A stretch of DNA of 64,000 bases from Gammaproteobacteria bacterium (lineage in GTDB: Bacteria; Pseudomonadota; Gammaproteobacteria; Pseudomonadales; Azotimanducaceae). The first letter of the stretch is position 1, and each line of letters opens with the position of its first letter. Both the position numbers and the translations under genes were made by a program. The notes beneath the pieces are model-generated. The model saw nothing but the letters and a program-made list of their open reading frames with translations. It made no database searches and was not told the origin of the DNA. The stretch is taken from NCBI GenBank assembly GCA_026708185.1, contig JAPOVK010000053.1:62001-126000 (forward strand), read 5' to 3'. Below are positions 8,749-57,802 of the stretch, piece by piece.

Positions 8749-8841
8749 ACCTGGGCGCTTGACTCCCCCGGCATGGTATGCTGGACTACGCAACGGCGGT
8801 TCGGAGCTTGCCACCCGGATCGCGGGCCTTGAGAGGTCGGA

Positions 8842-8932
8842 GGCCAGTGCGGGATTCGAACCCGCGACGTGCCTGCTTCAGGGGCACCCAGGATTGCCAA
8901 CCTGGGGCATTCGACCGCTCTGCCAACTGGCC
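8842..8932 (-). tRNA. class II tRNA (Ser-like) with 8-nt anticodon loop
   Basis: On the minus strand: acceptor stem GGCCAGT/ACTGGCC (7 bp, 8926-8932 with 8842-8848), TG at positions 8-9, D stem GCA/TGC with a Ser-type D loop, anticodon stem CCAGG/CCTGG (8901-8905 with 8888-8892), a long variable arm with stem GTGCC/GGCAC, and a perfect T arm GCGGG-TTCGAAT-CCCGC. The anticodon loop is eight bases (TTGGCAAT) where seven are normal. Removing one C would give a tRNA-Ser(GGA)-like loop. CCA is not encoded (TCCG follows) and the discriminator would be T, unusual for Ser. Either a frameshift-suppressor type tRNA or a pseudo-tRNA carried by the inserted block. Confidence 0.8.
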
Positions 8933-8947
8933 CGAAGCATAGAGTCT

Positions 8948-8988
8948 AGCCCCGGTCTCCCGTCAAGGGAACCGGGGCTTTCTCTTTC
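8948..8988 (+). terminator. strong intrinsic terminator
   Basis: AGCCCCGGT (8948-8956) pairs with ACCGGGGCT (8971-8979), and the stem extends inward by TCCC/GGGA with one bulged base, leaving loop GTCAA. It is followed by TTTCTCTTT. It would end plus-strand transcripts, for example of the 8264-8748 genes. Confidence 0.7.
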
Positions 8989-9008
8989 CGGGGCGTTTGA
9001 CGCCGCGT

Positions 9009-9037
9009 TTGACGCCGCCTTTCCCGTCCCTTAGAGT
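9009..9037 (+). promoter_or_regulatory. near-consensus sigma-70 promoter, copy 1 of duplicated module
   Basis: TTGACG (9009-9014), 17-base spacer, TAGAGT (9032-9037). A second TTGACG occurs 12 bases upstream at 8997-9002. Start of the first promoter-hairpin module. Confidence 0.55.
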
Positions 9038-9042
9038 CCTGC

Positions 9043-9116
9043 CCCGGCTCCCGACGCCACGGGCCGTTTCCCCGGCGACCCCCCGTCCCCAGGGCGGCAT
9101 CGAACCGAGGGAGCCG
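9043..9116 (+). ncRNA. possible structured RNA, module copy 1
   Basis: Immediately after promoter copy 1, CGGCTCCC (near 9045-9052) can pair with GGGAGCCG (9109-9116). The segment ends with GGCATCGAACCGAGGGAGCC (9096-9115), which recurs exactly at 9335-9354. No ORF with a ribosome binding site is seen. Could be the leader of a longer transcript rather than a discrete RNA. Confidence 0.3.
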
Positions 9117-9248
9117 ATCCGCCTTCGGGGGGAGGGCGACGGACTCCGGCGCGGGACGGGTCATCCGTGTCCTGCGGTTCGGTCGGCGTTGCGGGTAAGC
9201 CCCACTGCCAGCGTCGGCCTTCCCGCGCCGGGGTTCGTCCTTTCCCCG

Positions 9249-9276
9249 TTGACTCCGCGCCGCCCGCCCGTAGAAT
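9249..9276 (+). promoter_or_regulatory. near-consensus sigma-70 promoter, copy 2 of duplicated module
   Basis: TTGACT (9249-9254), 16-base spacer, TAGAAT (9271-9276); each box matches 5/6. It is followed by the same CCCCGGCTCCCG element as copy 1 and could drive the 9381 gene. Confidence 0.6.
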
Positions 9277-9277
9277 G

Positions 9278-9354
9278 CGCCCCGGCTCCCGAGGCTGCGG
9301 GCCGTGCGGACCCGTCAATGCTCGACTCGCCCACGGCATCGAACCGAGGGAGCC
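9278..9354 (+). ncRNA. possible structured RNA or leader, module copy 2
   Basis: GGCTCCC near 9284 is complementary to GGGAGCC at 9348-9354; the 20-base end GGCATCGAACCGAGGGAGCC is identical to copy 1. The hairpin ends 26 bases before the ATG at 9381, so in this copy the structure could act as a 5' leader of that gene. Confidence 0.3.
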
Positions 9355-9380
9355 TCTTCCCGCCCCTGCCGAGGAACGCG

Positions 9381-9581
9381 ATGAACGTCAGACCCGAAGC
9401 GCAGCTTGCCGCCATCCAGGGTACGCTGGCGTCCCTGGAGACAGCCGTTGCCGATCTGCGCATGGAGATCGAGGAACTGAAACGGCGAGCCGCCGAGGCC
9501 GACAGGCGGTGGCAACTGCTCAGATCGTTCGACAGCTACCGGGAACTGCACGCCCGGCTCGCGGACACGGGGGAGGTCTAG
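9381..9581 (+). CDS. small coiled-coil protein
   Basis: 66 residues. A GAGGAA site lies about 5 bases before ATG 9381. Residues about 10-45 (AIQGTLASLETAVADLRMEI, then EELKRRAAEADRRW) have a heptad pattern of Leu/Ala/Ile, a likely coiled coil. No other motif. It is the last gene of the inserted block and sits downstream of promoter copy 2 and its hairpin. A small structural or regulatory protein is possible; function unknown. Confidence 0.5.
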   Translation: MNVRPEAQLAAIQGTLASLETAVADLRMEIEELKRRAAEADRRWQLLRSFDSYRELHARLADTGEV

Positions 9582-9759: not shown

Positions 9760-12159
9760 ATGGCACGTTTTCAGTTCGCCCTGTCGTGGCGGCTGGCGCT
9801 CCGCCATTTCGTCAAGTCGCCCGGCTCCTACCTCTACGGCGCCGTGACATTGGCGTTGGGCTTGGGAAGCGCCACGCTGCTGTTCTCGCTCGTGCAGGGC
9901 CTCACGGCGCCGCTGCCCGTACCGAACGGCGAGCACGTCTTGCGCGTGGTCGTGGTGGATCCGGTCCGCAGCCACGCGCACGTCACGATCGACGACTTCC
10001 GTGCCTGGCGGTCGCATGCCGGGTCGTTCGAGAGCATCGCTGCGGTCGCCGTAGCCGAACGCAGAGTTGACATCAAGCGGGGCGACTTCCTGGCGCGGGT
10101 AGCGCACACGACGGCCGACGTGTTTCCGCTCCTTGGGGTCGAGCCGGTGCTGGGCCGATGGCCGACGGAAGCCGACGGCACCACGATCGCCATCGGCGAG
10201 GATCTGTGGACGACGACGTTCGAGCGCGACCCCGCGATACTCGGCCGGGAGGTCCGCCTGGACGACGAGGTCGCCGTCGTCGTCGGCGTGATGCCGAGCG
10301 GCTTCCGGTTCCCCTACAAGCAGGACATCTGGCAGGTGGTCGCCTGGGACTCGGTCCGGCTGGCCAACGGCGAGGTCGTCAGCCGGCTGAAGCCCGGCGT
10401 CTCGCGGGCGGCGGCGAGCGATGAGTTCACCGAGCTGATGCAGGCCGCGCGCACCGACCGCGAGGGCATCGCGGCGACCGCGACCGCACGCTTGATCGGG
10501 TTCACGGAAGAGCGGGGAGACCGGGAAGAGTACGCGGTTGGTATCGCACTGCTGTTGGTCGTGCTGGGACTGGTGTTGCTTTCCTGCTCGAACGTCAGCG
10601 CCCTGTTGCTGGAACGCAACCTGGCCCGGACGCGAACGCTGGCATTGCACCAGGCCCTAGGCGCGAGGCCGGCGCAAATCGCGTTGCAGATCCTGGTCGA
10701 GGCGTTGTTGGTCGGCGGCCTCGGCGGGATGCTTGGCGCCGCTGTCGCGCATGTGGGTCTGCGGTTCCTGATGACAACGTTGGCCGACAATCTCAGTTAC
10801 TACTGGACGCGGCTGGAGCTTGATGTGGCGTCCGTCGGATTCGCCAGTGCACTGAGCCTGGTCGTTGCGCTGGTGTGCGGCGCCTTGCCGGCCTGGCGAG
10901 CGGTCGGGACGGACGTAGGGCGAACCTTGGCGGAACAGGCCGAGGCGGTACAGGGCTCGCGCCGGACGCCGGTGTCCTGGATCCTGGTCAACGCGCAGAT
11001 GGCGTTCGCCGTCGCCGTGGTGGTGGCGGCCGTTGGGCTCGCCACCATCGTCGTGCAGAAGCCCTGGGAGGTCGACTTGGCGCCCGAGTTCGCGGGAGAC
11101 CGCGTCGTCTCGGCGCTGATTGTTTTCGAGGAGGATGCGGTCGACGCACCACGTGTCGAGGTGCTCCAGCGGCTGCAGGAACGGGTGCGCGCACTCCCGG
11201 GTGTGCAATCCGCGACCGTCAGCGTGGGCGACTGGCGAGCCCGGGTCGGTAGATTCGGTCTGCGCCGCGTCGCTTTTGGCGACGAACCGTTCGGCGACGA
11301 CCGGGGCGTGCCCATCCTCTACATCACCCCCGGCTTTATCGATACCTTCGAGATCAGCCTAGTCGAAGGGCGTCCGTTCGACGCCCGCGACATGGGATCG
11401 GACACCGGGACACCCGACGTTGCCATCGTGACCGAGGAATTCGTCCGCGAACGATTGCCGGACCAGGCAAGCGTTGGTCGCCGCATCCGGGTGGATCAGG
11501 GCGGCGGCCGCGAACGGGCATTCCGCATCGTCGGCGTCGTGTCGAACCTGGCGGTGACCGAAGACCACCGGCGGAACCCGGTCGAGCACGTGCTGCTCCC
11601 GGTTGCGACAACGGATGCCCGTACGTTCCAGCTCACGGCGCGAACCGCAGGGGTGACGGGGATCGATGCCCAGGTCGAGCGGATCGTCCGCGATACGGCT
11701 CCGGGGGTCGCGACGGTCGCCTATTCGTTCGACGAGTCCATGCGGCAATTCAACGACTACCTCGGACGTATAACCGAGACGTTGGGCGTGCTGGCGATCC
11801 TCGGCGGCAGCGGTTGCCTAGTCGTCGTCGCGATCGGGATCTACGGACTGGTCGCCTTCGAGGTGCGCCAGCGGCGCGGCGAGTACGCCGTGCGCTTAGC
11901 ACTGGGTGCGCGCGCCCAGCGGCTGCTATGGCTGGTAGTGCGCCGGGTCGGCCTGCTGGTCGTGCCGGGCACGGTTCTAGGCTTCGTGTTCGCCGGGGTC
12001 GGTTCCCCCCTGATGCGCGCGGTGGGTGGCCAGGACATCGACGTCGTACCGGTCTTCGTTGCGGTGTTCGCGTTGTACGCCGTCGTCGTCGCGGTGGCAG
12101 CCGGCGTGCCCACGCTCAGGGTTGTGCGAGCCAACCCGGCTCGCGTGTTGAACGGCTGA
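9760..12159 (+). CDS. ADOP-type (MacB/FtsX duplicated) ABC permease 2
   Basis: 799 residues with the same two-unit architecture as the permease at 1202-3697, but clearly diverged: N-terminus WRLALRHFVKSPGSYLYGAV, first helix about 25-45, periplasmic domain, three-helix FtsX block about 260-390, a second helix near 410, second periplasmic domain, and C-terminal helices with FEVRQRRGEYAVRLALGARA. It follows the remnant ATPase by 38 bases, the usual order in MacB-like operons. As with other ADOP permeases the substrate is unknown. Its cognate ATPase is destroyed here, so activity would need an ATPase in trans. Confidence 0.85.
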   Translation: MARFQFALSWRLALRHFVKSPGSYLYGAVTLALGLGSATLLFSLVQGLTAPLPVPNGEHVLRVVVVDPVRSHAHVTIDDFRAWRSHAGSFESIAAVAVAERRVDIKRGDFLARVAHTTADVFPLLGVEPVLGRWPTEADGTTIAIGEDLWTTTFERDPAILGREVRLDDEVAVVVGVMPSGFRFPYKQDIWQVVAWDSVRLANGEVVSRLKPGVSRAAASDEFTELMQAARTDREGIAATATARLIGFTEERGDREEYAVGIALLLVVLGLVLLSCSNVSALLLERNLARTRTLALHQALGARPAQIALQILVEALLVGGLGGMLGAAVAHVGLRFLMTTLADNLSYYWTRLELDVASVGFASALSLVVALVCGALPAWRAVGTDVGRTLAEQAEAVQGSRRTPVSWILVNAQMAFAVAVVVAAVGLATIVVQKPWEVDLAPEFAGDRVVSALIVFEEDAVDAPRVEVLQRLQERVRALPGVQSATVSVGDWRARVGRFGLRRVAFGDEPFGDDRGVPILYITPGFIDTFEISLVEGRPFDARDMGSDTGTPDVAIVTEEFVRERLPDQASVGRRIRVDQGGGRERAFRIVGVVSNLAVTEDHRRNPVEHVLLPVATTDARTFQLTARTAGVTGIDAQVERIVRDTAPGVATVAYSFDESMRQFNDYLGRITETLGVLAILGGSGCLVVVAIGIYGLVAFEVRQRRGEYAVRLALGARAQRLLWLVVRRVGLLVVPGTVLGFVFAGVGSPLMRAVGGQDIDVVPVFVAVFALYAVVVAVAAGVPTLRVVRANPARVLNG

Positions 12160-12287: not shown

Positions 12288-12797
12288 TCACGGCTCGTCG
12301 GTGAACATGTCCTGTATCTCCGACTCACCCATGCGGTCAAAGTCATCCGGCACGACGACTTGGCCTACGAGAAAGCCTTGGCGGCTTGACGCCCCATCCC
12401 TGATGGCGGCGAGGAACTCGCGTGGGCTGACGACAGCGATGCCATGGCAGAGCTCTGGGGGGAAGTGCTTCAGATTGCCGGTGATCAGGTAGTCGACCTT
12501 CGCTGCAACAGCGACTTCCAGGAACGGCTGGTCGCCAGGATCAGGTAGCGTGGTGTCCAAGGGGGTCGCCGCTAACCGAAGGCCGTTGGTCGACAGACGT
12601 GCGAGCACGGTCTCAACACCGTCCAACGGCAAGGACAGCCGAGGCCGTGTGAGTACATCCCGATACTCGGCAAGGACTCGTCCGTCAAAGCAAACGCGAT
12701 GCGCGCCTGAGCCAACGAGATCGACCACCGTCGCCGGCAGTCCATGGGGCGACAGCAAGCCCGACACCAGAACGTTGGTGTCCAAAACGACCCTCAC
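12288..12797 (-). CDS. PIN-domain toxin (putative VapC-like ribonuclease)
   Basis: 169 residues starting MRVVLDTNVLVSGLLS, the first PIN-domain acidic motif (D6), with a second conserved acid in AEYRDVL and later DPGDQPFLEVAVAAKVDYLITGN carrying the third and fourth acidic positions. This is the 'putative toxin-antitoxin system toxin component, PIN family' (COG1569-like). These are Mg-dependent RNases blocked by the cognate antitoxin. It overlaps by 4 bases with the Phd-type gene encoded just upstream (12794-13081), the standard antitoxin-first order. The C-terminus is longer than minimal VapC. Confidence 0.85.
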   Translation of the reverse strand: MRVVLDTNVLVSGLLSPHGLPATVVDLVGSGAHRVCFDGRVLAEYRDVLTRPRLSLPLDGVETVLARLSTNGLRLAATPLDTTLPDPGDQPFLEVAVAAKVDYLITGNLKHFPPELCHGIAVVSPREFLAAIRDGASSRQGFLVGQVVVPDDFDRMGESEIQDMFTDEP

Positions 12798-13081
12798 GGA
12801 CGTCGGGCGGCGCGAGAGTCGGCGATTTCGGCGTTGATCTCGTCGAGGGACAGTTCGGCAGCACCGGTTTCCCGCGCTCGTTCCCGGATCGACGCTATGG
12901 CCTGCAATGCGTCTGCTTGTCGCAGCGCTTCAAGGGTCCGGTCGAAGGTCTCTGGGGATGTGGCCACAAGAAACGCGATGGGTTTGCCGTTGGAGGTGAC
13001 GACCATGTGCCGTTGAGTGCCCAGGGCGTCCCAAACCGCGGCGGATCGACCTCGGAGTTCTCGGACGCTGATGAAGTCCAT
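12794..13081 (-). CDS. Phd/YefM-type antitoxin
   Basis: 95 residues. The N-terminus MDFISVRELRGRSAAVWDAL and MVVTSNGKPIAFLVA are the conserved Phd/YefM DNA-binding core; the C-terminal half (RQADALQAIASIRERARETG) is the helical toxin-binding tail. It lies first in the operon and its stop overlaps the toxin start. Such antitoxins autorepress by binding palindromes near the promoter; the upstream spacer has GTGTACACGACTGTGTAC (near 13097), which contains the palindrome GTGTACAC, a good operator candidate. Confidence 0.85.
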   Translation of the reverse strand: MDFISVRELRGRSAAVWDALGTQRHMVVTSNGKPIAFLVATSPETFDRTLEALRQADALQAIASIRERARETGAAELSLDEINAEIADSRAARRP

Positions 13082-13095
13082 GGCTTCTGGCTCCT

Positions 13096-13237: not shown

Positions 13238-14215
13238 TCAGACCCGCCCGCACACGATCCCGTTGCGGATCGCCGGTTGGCCGTCTTCCGTGACGGTCCT
13301 GAACAACACCCGCTTCTCGGACTCTCCTCTTGCGAGGGGTTCCCCCTCGCGCTCCCCGGCTGAGGGCTTTCTTCTTGCGAGGGGTTCCCCCTCGCGCTCC
13401 CCGGCTGAGGGCTCCGTCTCCTCCGCGAGCGCCTCGACGGCGATGGTCGTGTCCATCAGCACCATCGCGCGCAGTTGGCCGCAGAGCCGGGTGATGCGCG
13501 TGGCGTCGCCGTCGAAGCAGCGGTTGATCACCACGCTCAAGGACATGGCCTTGGTCGCGCTGCCGTGCAGGATGATGCCGGGCAAGCCGGCGGCCAAAGC
13601 GACGCTGGGCTCGGTGTGGATCGGGTTGTATATCTGCGCGCATTCCGTGTACTGCTGCGCGGCATGCAGGGCGACGGGGACCTCCTCGCGCCAGAGCGGG
13701 GCCCCGGCGGGCGCGGACACCTCGGGCCACGGCGGTTCCTCGTCGAGGATGGCGGCGGGTCCGGCCAAGGTCGCGCCGCGGGTGATGCCGTTGTAGTAGA
13801 GCTCCGCGATCAGCTCGCCGTTGCTGGCGGTCATGCGGTAGCGGTCGACGTTGTATACGCCGGGGCCGATTTGGCGCATTTGGATGGTCTTGCCCTGCGT
13901 GGTGACCGCCTCGCCGGTCCGGAACGGCCGGTGGATCGTCAAGTCGGTGGAGGCGTGCACGCCGTACGGCGCGGCGCGGGGATTCGGCTCCTGGTCGGGC
14001 CGGAAGCGGCTGGGCCATTGCAGGGCGAAGGCGATGCCCGGGTGGACGGTGACGCCCCCCGGTGCGAGGTCGTCGAAGTACGCGGGGTTGGCGTCGTTGA
14101 CGGCGGCCGCGTAGGCCATGGCGTACCGCGTGTCGATCAGCGTGGTCTTGGCGATGGAGTTCAGGCCGATGCCGTCGGTGCTGAGGACTCCGGGTCCGGT
14201 CTCGCTGCTCGACAC
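13238..14215 (-). CDS. MaoC-like (R)-hydratase/dehydratase family protein with internal palindromic-element insertion
   Basis: About 325 residues. It resembles double-hotdog MaoC-type proteins: an N-terminal hotdog (AMAYAAAVNDANPAYFDDLA...VTVHPGIAFALQWPSRF) and a second hotdog with the hydratase motif YNPIHTEPSVALAAGLPGII then LHGSATKAMSLSV. Such enzymes hydrate or dehydrate 2-enoyl-CoA substrates. The start is taken at GTG 14215 (AGGTGA upstream); the longer frame enters the repeat at 14.33 kb. Odd feature: near residues 267-297 the protein contains two 15-residue copies of EPSAGEREGEPLARR, coming from a palindromic repeat inserted in frame before the last strand (RVLFRTVTEDGQPAIRNG). The fold probably tolerates it as a surface loop. 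Confidence 0.75.
   Translation of the reverse strand: MSSSETGPGVLSTDGIGLNSIAKTTLIDTRYAMAYAAAVNDANPAYFDDLAPGGVTVHPGIAFALQWPSRFRPDQEPNPRAAPYGVHASTDLTIHRPFRTGEAVTTQGKTIQMRQIGPGVYNVDRYRMTASNGELIAELYYNGITRGATLAGPAAILDEEPPWPEVSAPAGAPLWREEVPVALHAAQQYTECAQIYNPIHTEPSVALAAGLPGIILHGSATKAMSLSVVINRCFDGDATRITRLCGQLRAMVLMDTTIAVEALAEETEPSAGEREGEPLARRKPSAGEREGEPLARGESEKRVLFRTVTEDGQPAIRNGIVCGRV
13327..13413. repeat. two tandem copies of the SAGEREG palindromic element inside the MaoC-like gene
   Basis: Each copy has the core GCGAGGGG-TT-CCCCCTCGC followed by GCTCCCCGGCTGAGGGCT on the plus strand. Cores begin at 13332 and 13377, a 45-base period, an exact multiple of three. The minus strand reads the peptide PSAGEREGEPLAR in both copies. 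The same element occurs at 49.7, 52.0 and 57.4-57.7 kb. Confidence 0.85.
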
Positions 14216-14324
14216 GGCTTCACCTGTTTCGAAACGACCGGGCGATGCTAACACCCGCCCGGGCATTCGGCGCTCGCCCTTATCGCCATGATGGCACGCC
14301 GTTCGCATGTCTGACATGAAAGAC

Positions 14325-14369
14325 GCGACCGCTTCGCGGTCGCCCCGAGAATTCGCTGCGCGAATTCTC
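14325..14369. repeat. double-hairpin (BIME-like) repeat, copy at 14.3 kb
   Basis: Hairpin 1 is GCGACCGC-TTC-GCGGTCGC (14325-14343); hairpin 2 is GAGAATTCGC-TGC-GCGAATTCTC (14347-14369). It lies between the MaoC-like gene start and ADOP permease 3. Almost the same pair recurs at 41537-41584. Two adjacent hairpins of this type resemble REP/BIME elements. Confidence 0.8.
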
Positions 14370-14471
14370 CTGGCGGCGAGGCGGCGGCGACCGCCAGGCA
14401 AGAAGCCCCGTGTTTGTTTCAGGCGAGCCCGCCGATCCAAAGGCGGATGTCTCGCGAAGGAGGAAAAAGGC

Positions 14472-16979
14472 GTGAGTGTCGCGATGTCTCGTTGGCTCTT
14501 GGAGCTACGCCAGGCCCTGCAAAGCTTGGCGCGGACGCCGGCGTTTACCGCCACGGCGGTGCTGACGCTCGGCGTGGGCTTAGGTGCGGGCGCCGCCACA
14601 TACACGCTGGTCAGGGACATCGTCCTCGATCCGTTGGGCTATCCGGATGCCGAGAGGCTGGTCGTGCTGCGCAGCGAGGTGCCGGGGGTGGGCGCGGGCG
14701 CCGAGTGGCAGGCTTCCTTCGCCCAGTACTACCAGTTCCGCGACAACGCCCGGGCGTTGGAGGGAATCGGTCTCTACGGGACAGTGGGAATGAACGTCGA
14801 TACGCCGAATGGTGCGGATCGCGTGACGGCCGTCATCGCCAGTGCGGACGTACAGGAGTTGATCGGCACCCGGACCGTGCGCGGCCGCTCCCTGTTGGCG
14901 GCGGACAACATGCCCGAGGCTCAGAACGTGGCGTTGATCTCGCGCGGCTATTGGCAGCGTCGCTTCGGTGGCGATCCCGACGTCGTCGGCAAGACACTCG
15001 GGATCAGCCAGTATGCCGACGTCTTGGGTTCGCCCGACGCCCCCTACGAAATCGTCGGAGTGCTCGCCCCGGATGCGGGCCTGCCGGGTATGCGCGGTGC
15101 CGACGCCGACCGGGCGGACGTCTGGCTGCCGGTCCGCCTTGACCCGACGCCGAGCGGCGGGCACTCGTGGAGTCTGCTCGCCAAGCTCGCTCCCGGCGTT
15201 TCGCTGATCGAGGCGCAAGCCGAACTGGACGGACTGACGCGAGGACTCGTCGACAGCTACCCCGACCTCTACTCGGAAGGGCTCTTCGAGAACTACGGCT
15301 TCCGAACACGGGCGCACGATCTCCGGTCGTTCGTCGTGGGCCCGGTCGCGCGCAACTTGTGGCTGATCCATGGCTGTGTCGTCCTTCTCTTGCTGGCCGC
15401 CGTTGTCAATGTCGCCAGCCTGTTCCTGGTCCGCGCGGAAGCGCGCCGCGGCGAAATGGACGTCCGGCTCGCTCTCGGGGCCAGGCGTCTGGGGATCTTT
15501 CGGCTGTTCGCTGGGCTTAGCGTCATGGTGGCGCTGGCCGGGGGAGCGCTGGGCCTGCTCGCTGGTCATTGGGCGGTGGCGTGGACGACGCTCAAGTCCT
15601 GGCAGATTCCGCGAATGGACCAGGTCGCTTTCGACGGGGGCGTCTTTGTCGTCGTCTTCGGCTTTGCGTTGGCCGTCGCTCTAGTGCTGGCCGGCTATTG
15701 CGCGTGGCGGGTGGACGGCCCCGGCTTGGCCGGTAGCGGGCGCAGCCTGCGCGGCGCGGTGCGCGCCGGCCAACGCCTGCGCTCCGCGATGACCGTGGCC
15801 CAGGTGTCCGTGTCCTTGGTTCTCGTGGTGGCCGCGTTCCTGATGATCGAGAGTTTCCGCAACCAGTACCGCATGGATACCGGGATCGAGGCTGCCGGCG
15901 CGGTGACGATCAAGACTTTCCACGATCGTTCGGACATGTCGGGGTGGTGGCCGTTCGTCAAGGAGGTCACCCGGCGGATCGACGCCCTGCCAGGGGTCAC
16001 GGCGGTCGGTGCGGCGACCGCCGTGCCCTTCGCCCGATTCACAGGGCACGGATGTACCCAGCAGGGATTCGACGATCCCGCCGTCCACGCGCGCGTCGAA
16101 GCCGAGGGCCTCACCTACTGCGCGGCGCAGGCCGTGGCGACGCCCGGCTACTTCGAGGCCACGGGCATTCCGATGATCCGCGGCAGAGGCTTTGCCGACG
16201 CGGACCTGGACAACCCGTCGGACGGCGTCGTCGTGGTCAGCGCGGCCTTCGCGTCGCGCTTCTGGCCCGGCGAGGATCCGCTGGGCAAGCGCGTCTCGCC
16301 GTACGGCGGGAAGACGTACTGGTATCGCGTGATCGGTGTGGCGGGCGACGTGTACCGGGGCTCCGTCCGGGAGGAGCCGCACAACCTGATCTACTACCCG
16401 TTGGCGCCGATCCCCGGTGATACGGGGTGGTACTTCTCGGGGATCGACTTCGTCGTGCGCGCCGATCTGCCGGAACCGGGCGTACTCGTTCCCGATGTTC
16501 GTCGCCTGATCGGGGAGATCGATCCGTCCGTCGTCGTGGGCGAGGTTTGGACCTTGGCCGCGCTGGTGGACCGCTCCATGGAGCACCTCGGCTTCACTTT
16601 GGCGGTCGTATCCGCCGCAGCCGTTGCCACGCTGGGGCTCGCGGGGCTTGGCCTGTATGGCGTCGTCGCCTACCTGGTCGCCCGCCGGACCAGCGAGATC
16701 GGGTTGCGCATGGCGCTTGGCGCGAGCCCCGGTCGAGTCCGCGGCATGGTCATCGCTCACTCGGTGAAGCTCGTCGCTCTCGGTTTGGCGATCGGCTTGG
16801 TTGTCAGTCTTGCCGCGACCACGGCGTTGCGCAGCTTCGTGTTCGGCGTAACGCCGTCGAATCCGACGGCGTACGTCATCGCCCTGCTCCTGGTGACGGC
16901 GGTGGCCGCATCCGCAAGCTGGCTTGCGACCCGAAATGCCGCCCGGGTCACGCCGATGGACGCCTTGCGGACGGAGTGA
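14472..16979 (+). CDS. ADOP-type (MacB/FtsX duplicated) ABC permease 3
   Basis: 835 residues, closest in this window to permease 1 (both share LQSLARTPAFTATAVLTL-type N-termini, DAERLVVLRSEVPG, and ARRTSEIGLRMALGA plus PMDALRTE at the end). Architecture: MacB_PCD helix and periplasmic domain, FtsX three-helix block, then the same again. The start is GTG 14472, placed by AAGGAGG 8 bases upstream; an in-frame ATG at 14484 is the alternative. No ATPase gene is adjacent. Substrate unknown. Confidence 0.85.
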   Translation: MSVAMSRWLLELRQALQSLARTPAFTATAVLTLGVGLGAGAATYTLVRDIVLDPLGYPDAERLVVLRSEVPGVGAGAEWQASFAQYYQFRDNARALEGIGLYGTVGMNVDTPNGADRVTAVIASADVQELIGTRTVRGRSLLAADNMPEAQNVALISRGYWQRRFGGDPDVVGKTLGISQYADVLGSPDAPYEIVGVLAPDAGLPGMRGADADRADVWLPVRLDPTPSGGHSWSLLAKLAPGVSLIEAQAELDGLTRGLVDSYPDLYSEGLFENYGFRTRAHDLRSFVVGPVARNLWLIHGCVVLLLLAAVVNVASLFLVRAEARRGEMDVRLALGARRLGIFRLFAGLSVMVALAGGALGLLAGHWAVAWTTLKSWQIPRMDQVAFDGGVFVVVFGFALAVALVLAGYCAWRVDGPGLAGSGRSLRGAVRAGQRLRSAMTVAQVSVSLVLVVAAFLMIESFRNQYRMDTGIEAAGAVTIKTFHDRSDMSGWWPFVKEVTRRIDALPGVTAVGAATAVPFARFTGHGCTQQGFDDPAVHARVEAEGLTYCAAQAVATPGYFEATGIPMIRGRGFADADLDNPSDGVVVVSAAFASRFWPGEDPLGKRVSPYGGKTYWYRVIGVAGDVYRGSVREEPHNLIYYPLAPIPGDTGWYFSGIDFVVRADLPEPGVLVPDVRRLIGEIDPSVVVGEVWTLAALVDRSMEHLGFTLAVVSAAAVATLGLAGLGLYGVVAYLVARRTSEIGLRMALGASPGRVRGMVIAHSVKLVALGLAIGLVVSLAATTALRSFVFGVTPSNPTAYVIALLLVTAVAASASWLATRNAARVTPMDALRTE

Positions 16980-48628: not shown

Positions 48629-49070
48629 CCGCAACGAGCGAGGCGATGGTGGGCTGACCGTCTGCCCAGCCTGCGACGGTCGGCTCATCCCGCGGGAACT
48701 GGCCTGCAAGGACTGCGGCCTGGTCGTGCAGACGCGTTTCAAGGGCAACGAGTTCGTCGGTCTGGACGACGACAACCTGCACCTGCTGCGCATTTTCGTG
48801 GCATGCGAAGGCCGCATACGCGACATGGAACGAGCGCTTGGCGTGAGCTATCCGACCGTGAAATCGCGCCTTGCGCGATTGCGCCGCGCATTGGGCACGG
48901 TCGAACCGGTGGCCGAAACCCCGGACCCGCCGCGGGATGAACCGCCACGACGGGCTGCCCGCCGAGACCGCGAGGGTCCGGCGGCGGTGCTCGACCGTCT
49001 TGAGGCGGGGGAGATCGACTTCGAGGAAGCGCTTCAGTCGATCAAGCGAGTGTCGCAGCGCGACCGCTAG
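48618..49070 (+). CDS. DUF2089-type zinc-ribbon and HTH protein
   Basis: 150 residues. An N-terminal zinc ribbon (VCPACDGRL...CKDCGLVVQ), then a helical winged-HTH-like region (RIRDMERALGVSYPTVKSRL ARLRRALG), matching DUF2089. The C-terminal segment LDRLEAGEIDFEEALQSIKR resembles the N-terminal helix of the preceding protein, suggesting a paired function. It overlaps the preceding gene by 11 bases and converges on recQ. A DNA-binding regulator is likely but untested. Confidence 0.78.
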   Translation: MPPDRNERGDGGLTVCPACDGRLIPRELACKDCGLVVQTRFKGNEFVGLDDDNLHLLRIFVACEGRIRDMERALGVSYPTVKSRLARLRRALGTVEPVAETPDPPRDEPPRRAARRDREGPAAVLDRLEAGEIDFEEALQSIKRVSQRDR

Positions 49071-49081
49071 TGCGGTCGCGC
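49058..49081. terminator. perfect 10-bp hairpin at convergent stop codons
   Basis: GCGCGACCGC-TAGT-GCGGTCGCGC. Both stop codons (DUF2089 TAG and recQ TAG on the minus strand) lie in or at its loop. It may act as a bidirectional terminator or RNA-stabilising hairpin; no T run is present. The half GACCGC/GCGGTC matches the double-hairpin family. Confidence 0.5.
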
Positions 49082-50953
49082 GTGCGCGGCGATGACTTCG
49101 AGGAAAGCGTCAGCGTAGCGGTCGAGCTTGGCTTGACCGACGCCGTGCACCGCGACCATGGCGGTGCGCGACTGCGGACGCAGCCGAACGAACTCCTTGA
49201 GCGTGGCGTCGTGGAAGACGACGTAGGGTGGTACCGACGCGTCGTCGGCCAGGTGCAAGCGGCATTCGCGCAGCGCCTCCCAAAGCGCTTCGTCCTGAGG
49301 CGTGATCTCGAACCCGTCATCGCGGGATTTCCGTGCGGACCGCTCGCGGGCCCGGTTGGCCACGGCGTCCTCGCGCAGCGTGAGCGTTGTCTCGCCGCGC
49401 AATAGCGGGCGCGCCGCCTGGGTCAGCCGCAGCGCGCCGAACCGCGCGGCGTCGGCGAGCACGAAGCCGCCGGCGATCAACTGGCGCAACAGGGACCGCC
49501 ACTGTGTCGCGCCGATGTCCGACCCGATGCCGAAGGTCGACAGCTTGTCATGGCGATGCTGCTGCACCTTGGGCGTGTCCTTGCCGCGCAGGACGTCGAT
49601 GACGTGGCCGGCACCGAAGTACTGCCCGGTGCGCACGATGCACGACATCAGCTTTTGTGCCTCCACCGTGCCGTCGTAGGTTTTGGGCGGATCGAGGCAG
49701 ATGTCGCAGTTGCCGCACGGGTCGGCTTCTCTGCGTGCGAGGGGTGCCCCCTCGCGCTCCCCGGCTGAGGGCTCTTCGTCGCCGAAATAGCGGAGCAGGG
49801 CCGCGCGTCGACATTCCGTGACCTCGCACCAGCCGAGCAGCGTATCGAGCTTGCTGCGCTCGATGCGTTTTTGCTGCTCGCTGGCTTCGCCCTGGTCGAC
49901 TAGCTGCCGCACCCGGACGACGTCCTGCAGGCCGTAGATCATCCAGGCGTCGGCATGCTCGCCGTCGCGGCCTGCGCGACCGGTCTCCTGGTAGTACGCT
50001 TCGATGCTCTTCGGCAGGTCGACGTGTGCGACGAAGCGGACATCCGGCTTGTCGATCCCCATGCCGAAGGCGATCGTGGCGACGATGACCACGCCGTCGT
50101 CGCGCAGGAACCGGCGCTGGTTTCGGGCGCGGTCGCCGCCAGGCATGCCGGCGTGGTAGGGAAGGGCGTCGTGCCCGGCATCACGCAACGCCGCGGCGGT
50201 CGTCTCCGTCTTGCGCCTCGATAGGCAATAGACGATCCCGGGCTGGCCGCGGTGCTCGTCCATGAATGCAAGCAGCTGATCGTTGGCATTGGACTTGATG
50301 CGGACCGAATAACGGATATTGGGACGGTCGAAGCCCCTCACGAATCGAGCCGGCTTCCTCAAACGCAGCCGGTTGACGATCTCTGTGCGCGTCCGGGCGT
50401 CTGCCGTCGCGGTCAGGGCCATGCGCGGAACGCCCGGGAAGCGTTCGGCGAGGACGTCGAGGCCGAGGTAGTCCTGGCGGAAGTCGTGGCCCCATTGCGA
50501 GACGCAATGCGCCTCGTCGATCGCGAACAGCGCGACGTCCGCGCGGTCGAGGATCCGCAGCGTCTCCTCCTGCAGAAGGCGTTCCGGGGCGAGGTACAGC
50601 AGGTCCAGCCGACCCTCGGCAAGTTGACGGGTGATGTCGGCCTGCTCGTGCCAAGACACGGTCGAGTTCAGGAACGACGCGGCCACGCCGAGTTGCCGGA
50701 GTGCCGCGACCTGGTCCTGCATCAGTGCGATCAGCGGTGAAACCACCACCGCCGTGCCCGGCCGAATGAGCGCAGGGACCTGGTAGCACAGCGACTTGCC
50801 GCCGCCGGTCGGCATCAGCACCAGGCAATCGCGGCCCGCGAGCACGGCTTCGATCACCTCCGCCTGTCCGGGGCGGAAGTCGTCGTAGCCGAAAACCGTC
50901 CGTAGAGTGTTGCGGGCCTGCTCGCGCACGGCCTCGATTATAGGTGCGGGCAT
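49067..50953 (-). CDS. recQ: ATP-dependent DNA helicase RecQ with palindromic-element insertion
   Basis: 628 residues: helicase motifs LMPTGGGKSLCYQVP (Walker A), AIDEAHCVSQWGHDFR (DEAH), TGRAGRDG (motif VI), then the RecQ zinc region WCEVTECRRAALLRYFGD ... CGNCDIC, RQC wing and a C-terminal HRDC domain (FEITPQDEALWEALRECRLH). RecQ unwinds DNA in repair and recombination. Odd: between the first zinc Cys and the CGNCDIC pair lies EPSAGEREGAPLARR, an in-frame copy of the palindromic element at 49731-49776 (residues about 393-408). The residues around it keep the fold's order, so the protein may be functional. Confidence 0.93.
   Translation of the reverse strand: MPAPIIEAVREQARNTLRTVFGYDDFRPGQAEVIEAVLAGRDCLVLMPTGGGKSLCYQVPALIRPGTAVVVSPLIALMQDQVAALRQLGVAASFLNSTVSWHEQADITRQLAEGRLDLLYLAPERLLQEETLRILDRADVALFAIDEAHCVSQWGHDFRQDYLGLDVLAERFPGVPRMALTATADARTRTEIVNRLRLRKPARFVRGFDRPNIRYSVRIKSNANDQLLAFMDEHRGQPGIVYCLSRRKTETTAAALRDAGHDALPYHAGMPGGDRARNQRRFLRDDGVVIVATIAFGMGIDKPDVRFVAHVDLPKSIEAYYQETGRAGRDGEHADAWMIYGLQDVVRVRQLVDQGEASEQQKRIERSKLDTLLGWCEVTECRRAALLRYFGDEEPSAGEREGAPLARREADPCGNCDICLDPPKTYDGTVEAQKLMSCIVRTGQYFGAGHVIDVLRGKDTPKVQQHRHDKLSTFGIGSDIGATQWRSLLRQLIAGGFVLADAARFGALRLTQAARPLLRGETTLTLREDAVANRARERSARKSRDDGFEITPQDEALWEALRECRLHLADDASVPPYVVFHDATLKEFVRLRPQSRTAMVAVHGVGQAKLDRYADAFLEVIAAHARPH
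49731..49776. repeat. SAGEREG palindromic element inside recQ
   Basis: Plus strand GCGAGGGGTGCCCCCTCGC then GCTCCCCGGCTGAGGGCT. Read on the minus strand in frame as EPSAGEREGAPLAR, the same frame as in the MaoC-like gene. Confidence 0.88.
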
Positions 50954-52029: not shown

Positions 52030-52080
52030 TTTTGCGAGGGGCGAGCCCCTCGCGCTCCCCCGCTGAAGGCTCTTGCTCGC
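52030..52080. repeat. SAGEREG palindromic element abutting a ribosome binding site
   Basis: TTTGCGAGGGGCGAGCCCCT, then CGCGCTCCCCCGCTGAAGGCTCTTGCTCGC, ending directly at TAGGAGG of the LLM gene. Loop and stem differ slightly from the array copies. It is in the divergent spacer between the MocA-type and LLM genes. Confidence 0.82.
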
Positions 52081-57437: not shown

Positions 57438-57445
57438 CGGTTCGA

Positions 57446-57671
57446 GAGCCCTCAGCCGGGGAGCGCGAGGGGGGTTCCCCCTCGCAAGCAAGAGCCCTCA
57501 GCCGGGGAGCGCGAGGGGGGTTCCCCCTCGCAAGCAAGAGCCCTCAGCCGGGGAGCGCGAGGGGGGTTCCCCCTCGCAAGCAAGAGCCCTCAGCCGGGGA
57601 GCGCGAGGGGGGTTCCCCCTCGCAAGCAAGAGCCCTCAGCCGGGGAGCGGGAGGGGCTGGCCCCTCGCAAG
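57446..57671. repeat. tandem array of five palindromic units (46-bp period)
   Basis: Units begin at 57446, 57492, 57538, 57584 and 57630; the first four are nearly identical (GAGCCCTCAGCCGGGGAGCG followed by the palindrome GCGAGGGGG-GTT-CCCCCTCGC and AAGCAA), the fifth is variant (GCGGGAGGGGCTGGCCCCTC). There are no unique spacers, so it is not a CRISPR. The same element occurs as coding copies in two genes. It could terminate the mlaA transcript or serve as a recombination hotspot. Confidence 0.9.
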
Positions 57672-57802
57672 GACCGAGGTCGATGGGCGATTTCCTACGT
57701 CACATCGCGCCCATGTCCTACGCGTATTCGAGAGATTTGCCCTGACCCCCAGGCCTTTGTGGGCTCTAACGTTGTGTTGGCGCAGCGGCCTGGGAGCCAG
57801 AC

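Follow-up and report, generated by a model that had tools for sequence, protein, structure and literature searches.

The window analysed here, a single stretch of 64,000 nucleotides, raises the question of why one short palindrome should be read as part of two unrelated proteins and also lie between genes. A preliminary description had reported two copies with a period of 45 bp in a gene for a MaoC-like hydratase and one copy in recQ, all read as EPSAGEREGxPLAR, together with an array near 57.4 kb that has a period of 46 bp. The repeats and their translations agree with this account, and the cores of the 57.4-kb array start at 57465, 57511, 57557 and 57603, followed by a fifth, divergent unit at 57647. 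Based on a comparison with related genomes, we consider the element very probably to be a non-autonomous, REP-like palindrome that is nearly confined to one genus, enters genes in frame and is filtered there by selection.

A palindromic unit of about 45 bp in one genus

The strict core of the element, GCGAGGGG-N-CCCCTCGC, occurs at eight places in the window, compared with a maximum of zero in 100 shuffles (Table 1). The two copies in the MaoC-like gene are 93% identical and spaced 45 bp apart, and the 460-aa ORF, whose true start is probably internal to the open frame, reads EPSAGEREGEPLARRKPSAGEREGEPLARG across them; the two-unit array folds at z = −2.9. A copy at 52034, omitted from the preliminary description, lies ∼17 bp upstream of the probable ATG (∼52092, by eye) of a gene for a luciferase-like monooxygenase. 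No Rfam match at the gathering threshold was found between positions 10000 and 60000. Adjoining the MaoC gene, a PIN_3 domain protein is encoded beside a short Phd-type antitoxin-like frame (12291–13082, minus strand; by eye), a possible toxin-antitoxin pair.

Table 1. Copies of the element and their host genes in the 64-kb window.
Feature	Position	Strand	Reading or match	Remark
MaoC-like hydratase ORF	13238..14620	−	Pfam	array near C-terminus
Two-unit array in MaoC-like ORF	13328..13414 (repeat span 13319–13408)	−	EPSAGEREGEPLARR/KPSAGEREGEPLARG	
recQ, 628-aa ORF	49067..50953	−	TIGR01389, 806 bits (cut-off 640)	Pfam agrees
Single unit in recQ	49732..49776	−	EPSAGEREGAPLARR	loop between CRRAALLRYFGD and CGNCDIC
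Single unit before luciferase-like monooxygenase	52030..52074 (core 52034)	−	gene: Pfam Bac_luciferase	
Five-unit array outside called genes	57445..57672	+		46-bp period

All genomes compared are draft assemblies. The genome of the window (G000, 5.13 Mb) contains 198 strict cores, and each of 15 other genomes of the genus contains between 1 and 100, so that at least one core is present in all 16 genus genomes examined. Outside the genus, a single core was detected in one of 13 genomes of the family and order (G018), which may be due to chance because a reversed control pattern also matches once there. Several G000 contigs start (C1, C9, C13 and C16) or end (C2 and C23) inside element arrays; the assembly may therefore be interrupted by long arrays, and the copy numbers may be too low.

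The unit of ∼45 bp consists of GAGCCCTCAGCCGGGGAGC, a small stem-loop, the palindrome GCGAGGGG-N3-5-CCCCTCGC, and AAG with a few A-rich bases. In the consensus of 55 G000 units, the palindrome is preceded by GAGC and followed by AAG; this consensus is open in five of six frames and carries neither a GTAG or GT(A/G)G nor a CGTC tag at the palindrome end. As a short, dispersed palindrome of high copy number the element resembles REPs. A profile built from the 55 units gave 81 matches at 47 loci in 1.20 Mb of G000 and 105 matches at 53 loci in 0.77 Mb of the related genome G007, where the G007 stretches mainly, and part of the G000 stretches, had been picked around elements. All 46 multi-unit loci are arranged head to tail. 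Among 83 measured array periods, 66 are 45 bp, four are 66 bp, three are 42 bp, and ten are not multiples of three; the 66-bp variant, of 22 codons, shares its ends with the usual unit and encloses a larger hairpin. The preliminary description had set the 46-bp period of the non-coding array against the 45 bp found in genes, an argument that is weakened because a period of 45 bp prevails throughout, outside genes as well. The spacing is also largely kept where the sequence differs: the G014 unit has changes in both stem-loops, and core-to-core spacings within its arrays are still 45 bp in 5/5 cases, while in G009 they are 45 bp in 6/8 and 44 bp in 2/8. Units whose core is 19 bp are again spaced 45 bp apart; their tail is lengthened in G000, and in G014 their first loop.

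Filled and empty sites in unrelated genes

Comparison of related DNA shows insertion, changes in array size and in-frame reading of the inserted sequence. The recQ unit is present in G000 alone among 15 full-length RecQs of the genus (no RecQ match was found in the sixteenth genome, G009); in the 14 others the loop is short or, in G012, longer and unrelated. Named genomes gave 80 RecQ loci, and the peptide is absent from all 76 in which the loop could be read. The named records are mostly gammaproteobacterial MAGs, whose bin names presumably point to marine sponges. MaoC homologues were found in nine of the 15 other genus genomes, and the site, readable in eight of them, lacks the insert in each. 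The preliminary view of a protein-coding palindromic element is thus borne out by in-frame insertion into unrelated genes with insert-free homologues.

At 13 sites, one of the two genomes G000 and G007 carries the element and the other lacks it. Measured between blast flanks, the net gain in the G000 recQ is 45 bp, the G007 MaoC orthologue is 87 bp shorter at the two-unit site, and three further sites within ORFs differ by 45 bp each (an esterase, an unnamed G007 ORF and a C-terminal tail). At the remaining eight, which in some cases overlap the ends of called genes, the net lengths are 42, 230, 87, 66, 88, 55, 24 and 39 bp; the last two correspond to partial elements, and the 230 bp to the five-unit array at 57.4 kb, which is missing in G007. 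Target-site duplication, as looked for in a DDE-type MITE, could be judged at the cleanest empty site, that of G007 at window position 52034 (net 42 bp), where none longer than 2 bp was seen by eye; the other sites are too diverged to judge. At one orthologous site, G000 carries two 45-type units (L027, 9463–9548) and G007 one 66-bp variant (L133, 506–572), which suggests replacement at an occupied site.

How often the element lies within genes was scored for 89 of 100 loci in the G000 and G007 stretches, the other 11 lying at the border of the sequence retrieved. Using gene calls and coding scores from a purpose-built Markov model, 35 of the 89 loci lie in an ORF that has coding flanks and continues through the element, and 54 lie outside ORFs by this criterion. 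The 35 comprise 12 within ∼15 codons of the C-terminus and 23 internal copies, from which three read-through loci in the EPSAGEREG frame (C4 27380, C34 46865 and C112 95001) were excluded for scores below threshold. Twenty of the 23 internal carriers match a family (17/20 in one scan set, plus RecQ, MaoC and SuhB), and no Pfam family was found for three; the SuhB match falls below the full-length cut-off of its model, as expected of a split match. Carriers include RsmH (three units), RlmN (two), a RluC-like pseudouridine synthase (two), HrpA (four, of two unit sizes), DsbD (three), type III pantothenate kinase (three), an alpha/beta hydrolase (seven) and SuhB (seven), as well as CysH, GspJ, RseB and a CcmI-like protein. 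The longest in-gene array thus has seven units, or ∼105 residues. In stretches from G014, G010 and G008, 5/22 loci are inside ORFs, with more than one frame used.

In SuhB, RsmH, RlmN and RecQ, alignments to solved structures halt before the insert and restart after it, and the RecQ insert (residues 393–407) appears as a gap in the alignment to 4q47. An AlphaFold2 model of RecQ (mean pLDDT 83.7) scores below 50 at residues 396–410, which cover most of the insert, and also at 155–157 and 531–547. SuhB is matched in all 16 genus genomes, with one gene per genome at E ≤ 1e-30; of four surplus matches, two are pieces of split hits and two fall on other arrays. Its site holds one unit in G000, seven in G007 and none in the 14 others. 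In several members of the genus, the loop has extra residues at the same site that are unrelated and poorly conserved (L267–L275), so that it seems generally permissive. Between G000 and G007, dN/dS is 0.125 for RecQ and, for gene segments only, 0.089 before and 0.074 after the insert in SuhB and 0.076 upstream of the insert in MaoC (stop-to-stop frames overrunning the genes gave 0.178 for SuhB and 0.173 for MaoC). These substitution ratios show purifying selection on the three host genes tested.

Reading frame, strand and depletion in genes

The preliminary description had stated that coding copies use one strand and one frame. This holds for MaoC and recQ in the window and fails beyond it: the 23 internal copies read EPSAGEREG (frame A) in 16 cases, SPQPGSARG in four, ALSRGARG in two and antisense in one, a partial element. 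Frames other than A are used in CysH, RlmN, HrpA, a DUF4892 protein, RseB and an FGE-like protein. The 12 copies near C-termini are distributed as 4, 3, 2 and 3 in the same order. As an expectation for unselected insertion we took, among the open frames, the bases favored ahead of 53 loci outside ORFs, where AA is frequent. Frame A (16/23) exceeds the expected fraction of 0.18 (p = 1e-7), and the sense strand (22/23) exceeds the expected 0.61 (p = 2e-4). Frame A is also the most hydrophilic reading, with the lowest hydropathy (−1.65). The bias of internal copies is consistent with selection on the encoded peptide; against this stands the contrast in frame A between internal (16/23) and near-C-terminal copies (4/12), which is not significant (p = 0.07).

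All 25 periods in internal arrays are divisible by three, compared with 48/58 elsewhere (p = 0.03). In line with the proposal that selection or insertion preserves the reading frame, both this difference and the excess of frame and strand over site preference speak for such an effect; the coding preference that had been supposed alongside it is contradicted by the data. Coding flanks in one frame surround only 6/40 G000 element loci versus 1024/2000 random positions, so that genes are depleted; this is the like-for-like test, since setting 23/89 against random positions mixes criteria. What remains of the role of the reading frame is that of a filter on insertions.

Mobilization, alternative explanations and known palindromes

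In the reading we consider very probable, a short block is inserted, in many cases behind AA, and the inserted unit is then amplified head to tail. The usual unit has 15 codons, and five of its six frames are open; each unit inserted in a gene can therefore lengthen the protein by 15 residues, mostly hydrophilic and probably unstructured. Insertions that keep the frame, fall in tolerant loops and use the most hydrophilic sense frame would survive, and others would be purged by selection; selection at the level of the peptide would then have caused the bias in frame and strand. The mover may be a hairpin-recognizing single-strand enzyme of HUH-like type: the preference for AA, and a single clean site that shows no long target duplication, would fit hairpin-guided single-strand transfer of the IS200/REP type.

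Matches to Y1_Tnp are present in 10/16 genus genomes, at 19 loci in all, two of them in G000. None of the 19 (1.6–3.3 kb each) contains a significant element match, the only hit being a fragment with E = 2.4, and a resident Y1 transposase or RAYT was thus rejected as mobilizer, although the drafts may lack the cognate RAYT gene. Two G000 genes are RAYT-like (L045, 11130–11885, on contig C23; L041, ∼8790–9572, on contig C13); an apparently different repeat, translated as PARWTKRGQP and similar, adjoins them by eye, and the C13 gene looks split over two frames. A longer, autonomous version was also sought: 15 extra matches to the left end in 1.97 Mb include none with cargo (by eye), three being the 66-bp variant beside known units and the rest apparently chance or degenerate. 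One 21-base stretch of the element has no exact match in viral contigs, and the 57.4-kb array has no blastn match in phage or plasmid records.

The element could still be a conventional REP moved by a RAYT (TnpA-REP) whose gene is lost, missing from the drafts or located elsewhere. It resembles REPs in size, copy number, palindromicity and clustering, and the absence of a long target duplication at the cleanest insertion site and the presence of Y1_Tnp genes in most of the genus also agree with this; set against the lack of a significant element match at all 19 Y1 loci, a consensus with neither a GTAG nor a GT(A/G)G head next to the palindrome, and the other repeat that seems to flank the G000 genes, we regard it as possible though rather unlikely. 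A function of the peptide as linker or interaction tag, spreading through a benefit to host proteins, would account for the strong one-frame hydrophilic bias and for the SuhB insert in both species. We consider it improbable, given that the host proteins have no evident role in common, nearly all examined RecQ, MaoC and SuhB orthologues have empty sites, six carriers use other frames, and more than half of the scored loci are outside ORFs.

That the carriers are decaying pseudogenes, read in frame by chance in stop-poor, GC-rich DNA, is very improbable. Read-through alone is weak evidence because five of six frames of the unit are open, but the coding flanks on both sides share one frame, family or structure matches continue on both sides of the insert in several carriers, dN/dS is 0.07–0.13 in the three genes tested, and SuhB, a single gene per genome, carries the insert in both species. 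Least credible of all is a minisatellite that arose by local tandem duplication without mobility. Differences of about one or three units at shared sites, and one versus seven units in SuhB, would suit it, and local tandem duplication is the likely route of array growth; the same sequence nevertheless occurs at many unrelated sites, with single-unit insertions where the relative is empty. An in-frame insertion of a mobile palindrome with subsequent selection remains the reading we prefer.

Coding palindromes as such are already known, and among them the element, with its long arrays inside genes, seems to form a family of its own. According to two reports (PMC3733652, PMC10969869), Rickettsia RPEs are dispersed palindromes found in frame in unrelated protein genes and also outside genes, as is the case here. 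They measure ∼150 bp, form several families and in part end in CGTC, whereas the element described here, compared by description only, is 45 bp long, has no CGTC end, forms head-to-tail arrays and belongs to a gammaproteobacterial genus. GTAG/CGTC REPs are likewise short, high-copy palindromes, mostly intergenic with some inside genes of several species, where clusters encode 43–82 aa, and some intragenic REPs have been equated with Rickettsia RPEs (Di Nocera et al. 2013, PMC3733652). Our element differs from them by the lack of a tag and of any bordering RAYT found, by its uniform head-to-tail order and by reaching as many as seven units (∼105 residues) within one gene. With the REP/RAYT systems, as outlined by Nunvar et al. 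(2010, PMC2817692), it shares a palindrome with a variable middle, often in more than 100 copies; the GT(A/G)G head and the RAYT association of those systems were not found here. The coding palindromes of Wolbachia and Methanocaldococcus and the PARCEL repeats also insert palindromic coding sequence into proteins, in lineages other than this one, a likeness of description rather than sequence (PMC2996958). In the literature searched, which included few subscription papers, neither a description of this family nor its peptide string was encountered.

A mobile palindrome unlike the described tagged REPs thus enters SuhB, RsmH and RecQ without breaking their frames, and caution is needed with annotations of these genomes, which include repeat-derived peptides. 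More speculatively, and in our view doubtful, the element may be adapted to life inside genes, with a unit of ∼15 codons held by compensating indels and a favored frame that is the most hydrophilic one. If so, it would represent selfish DNA selected for harmless translation, and would keep supplying core enzymes with 15-residue modules. Natural allele pairs, in the form of filled and empty sites and of arrays that differ in size between related species, make an old proposal testable: that new segments of proteins come from selfish palindromes.
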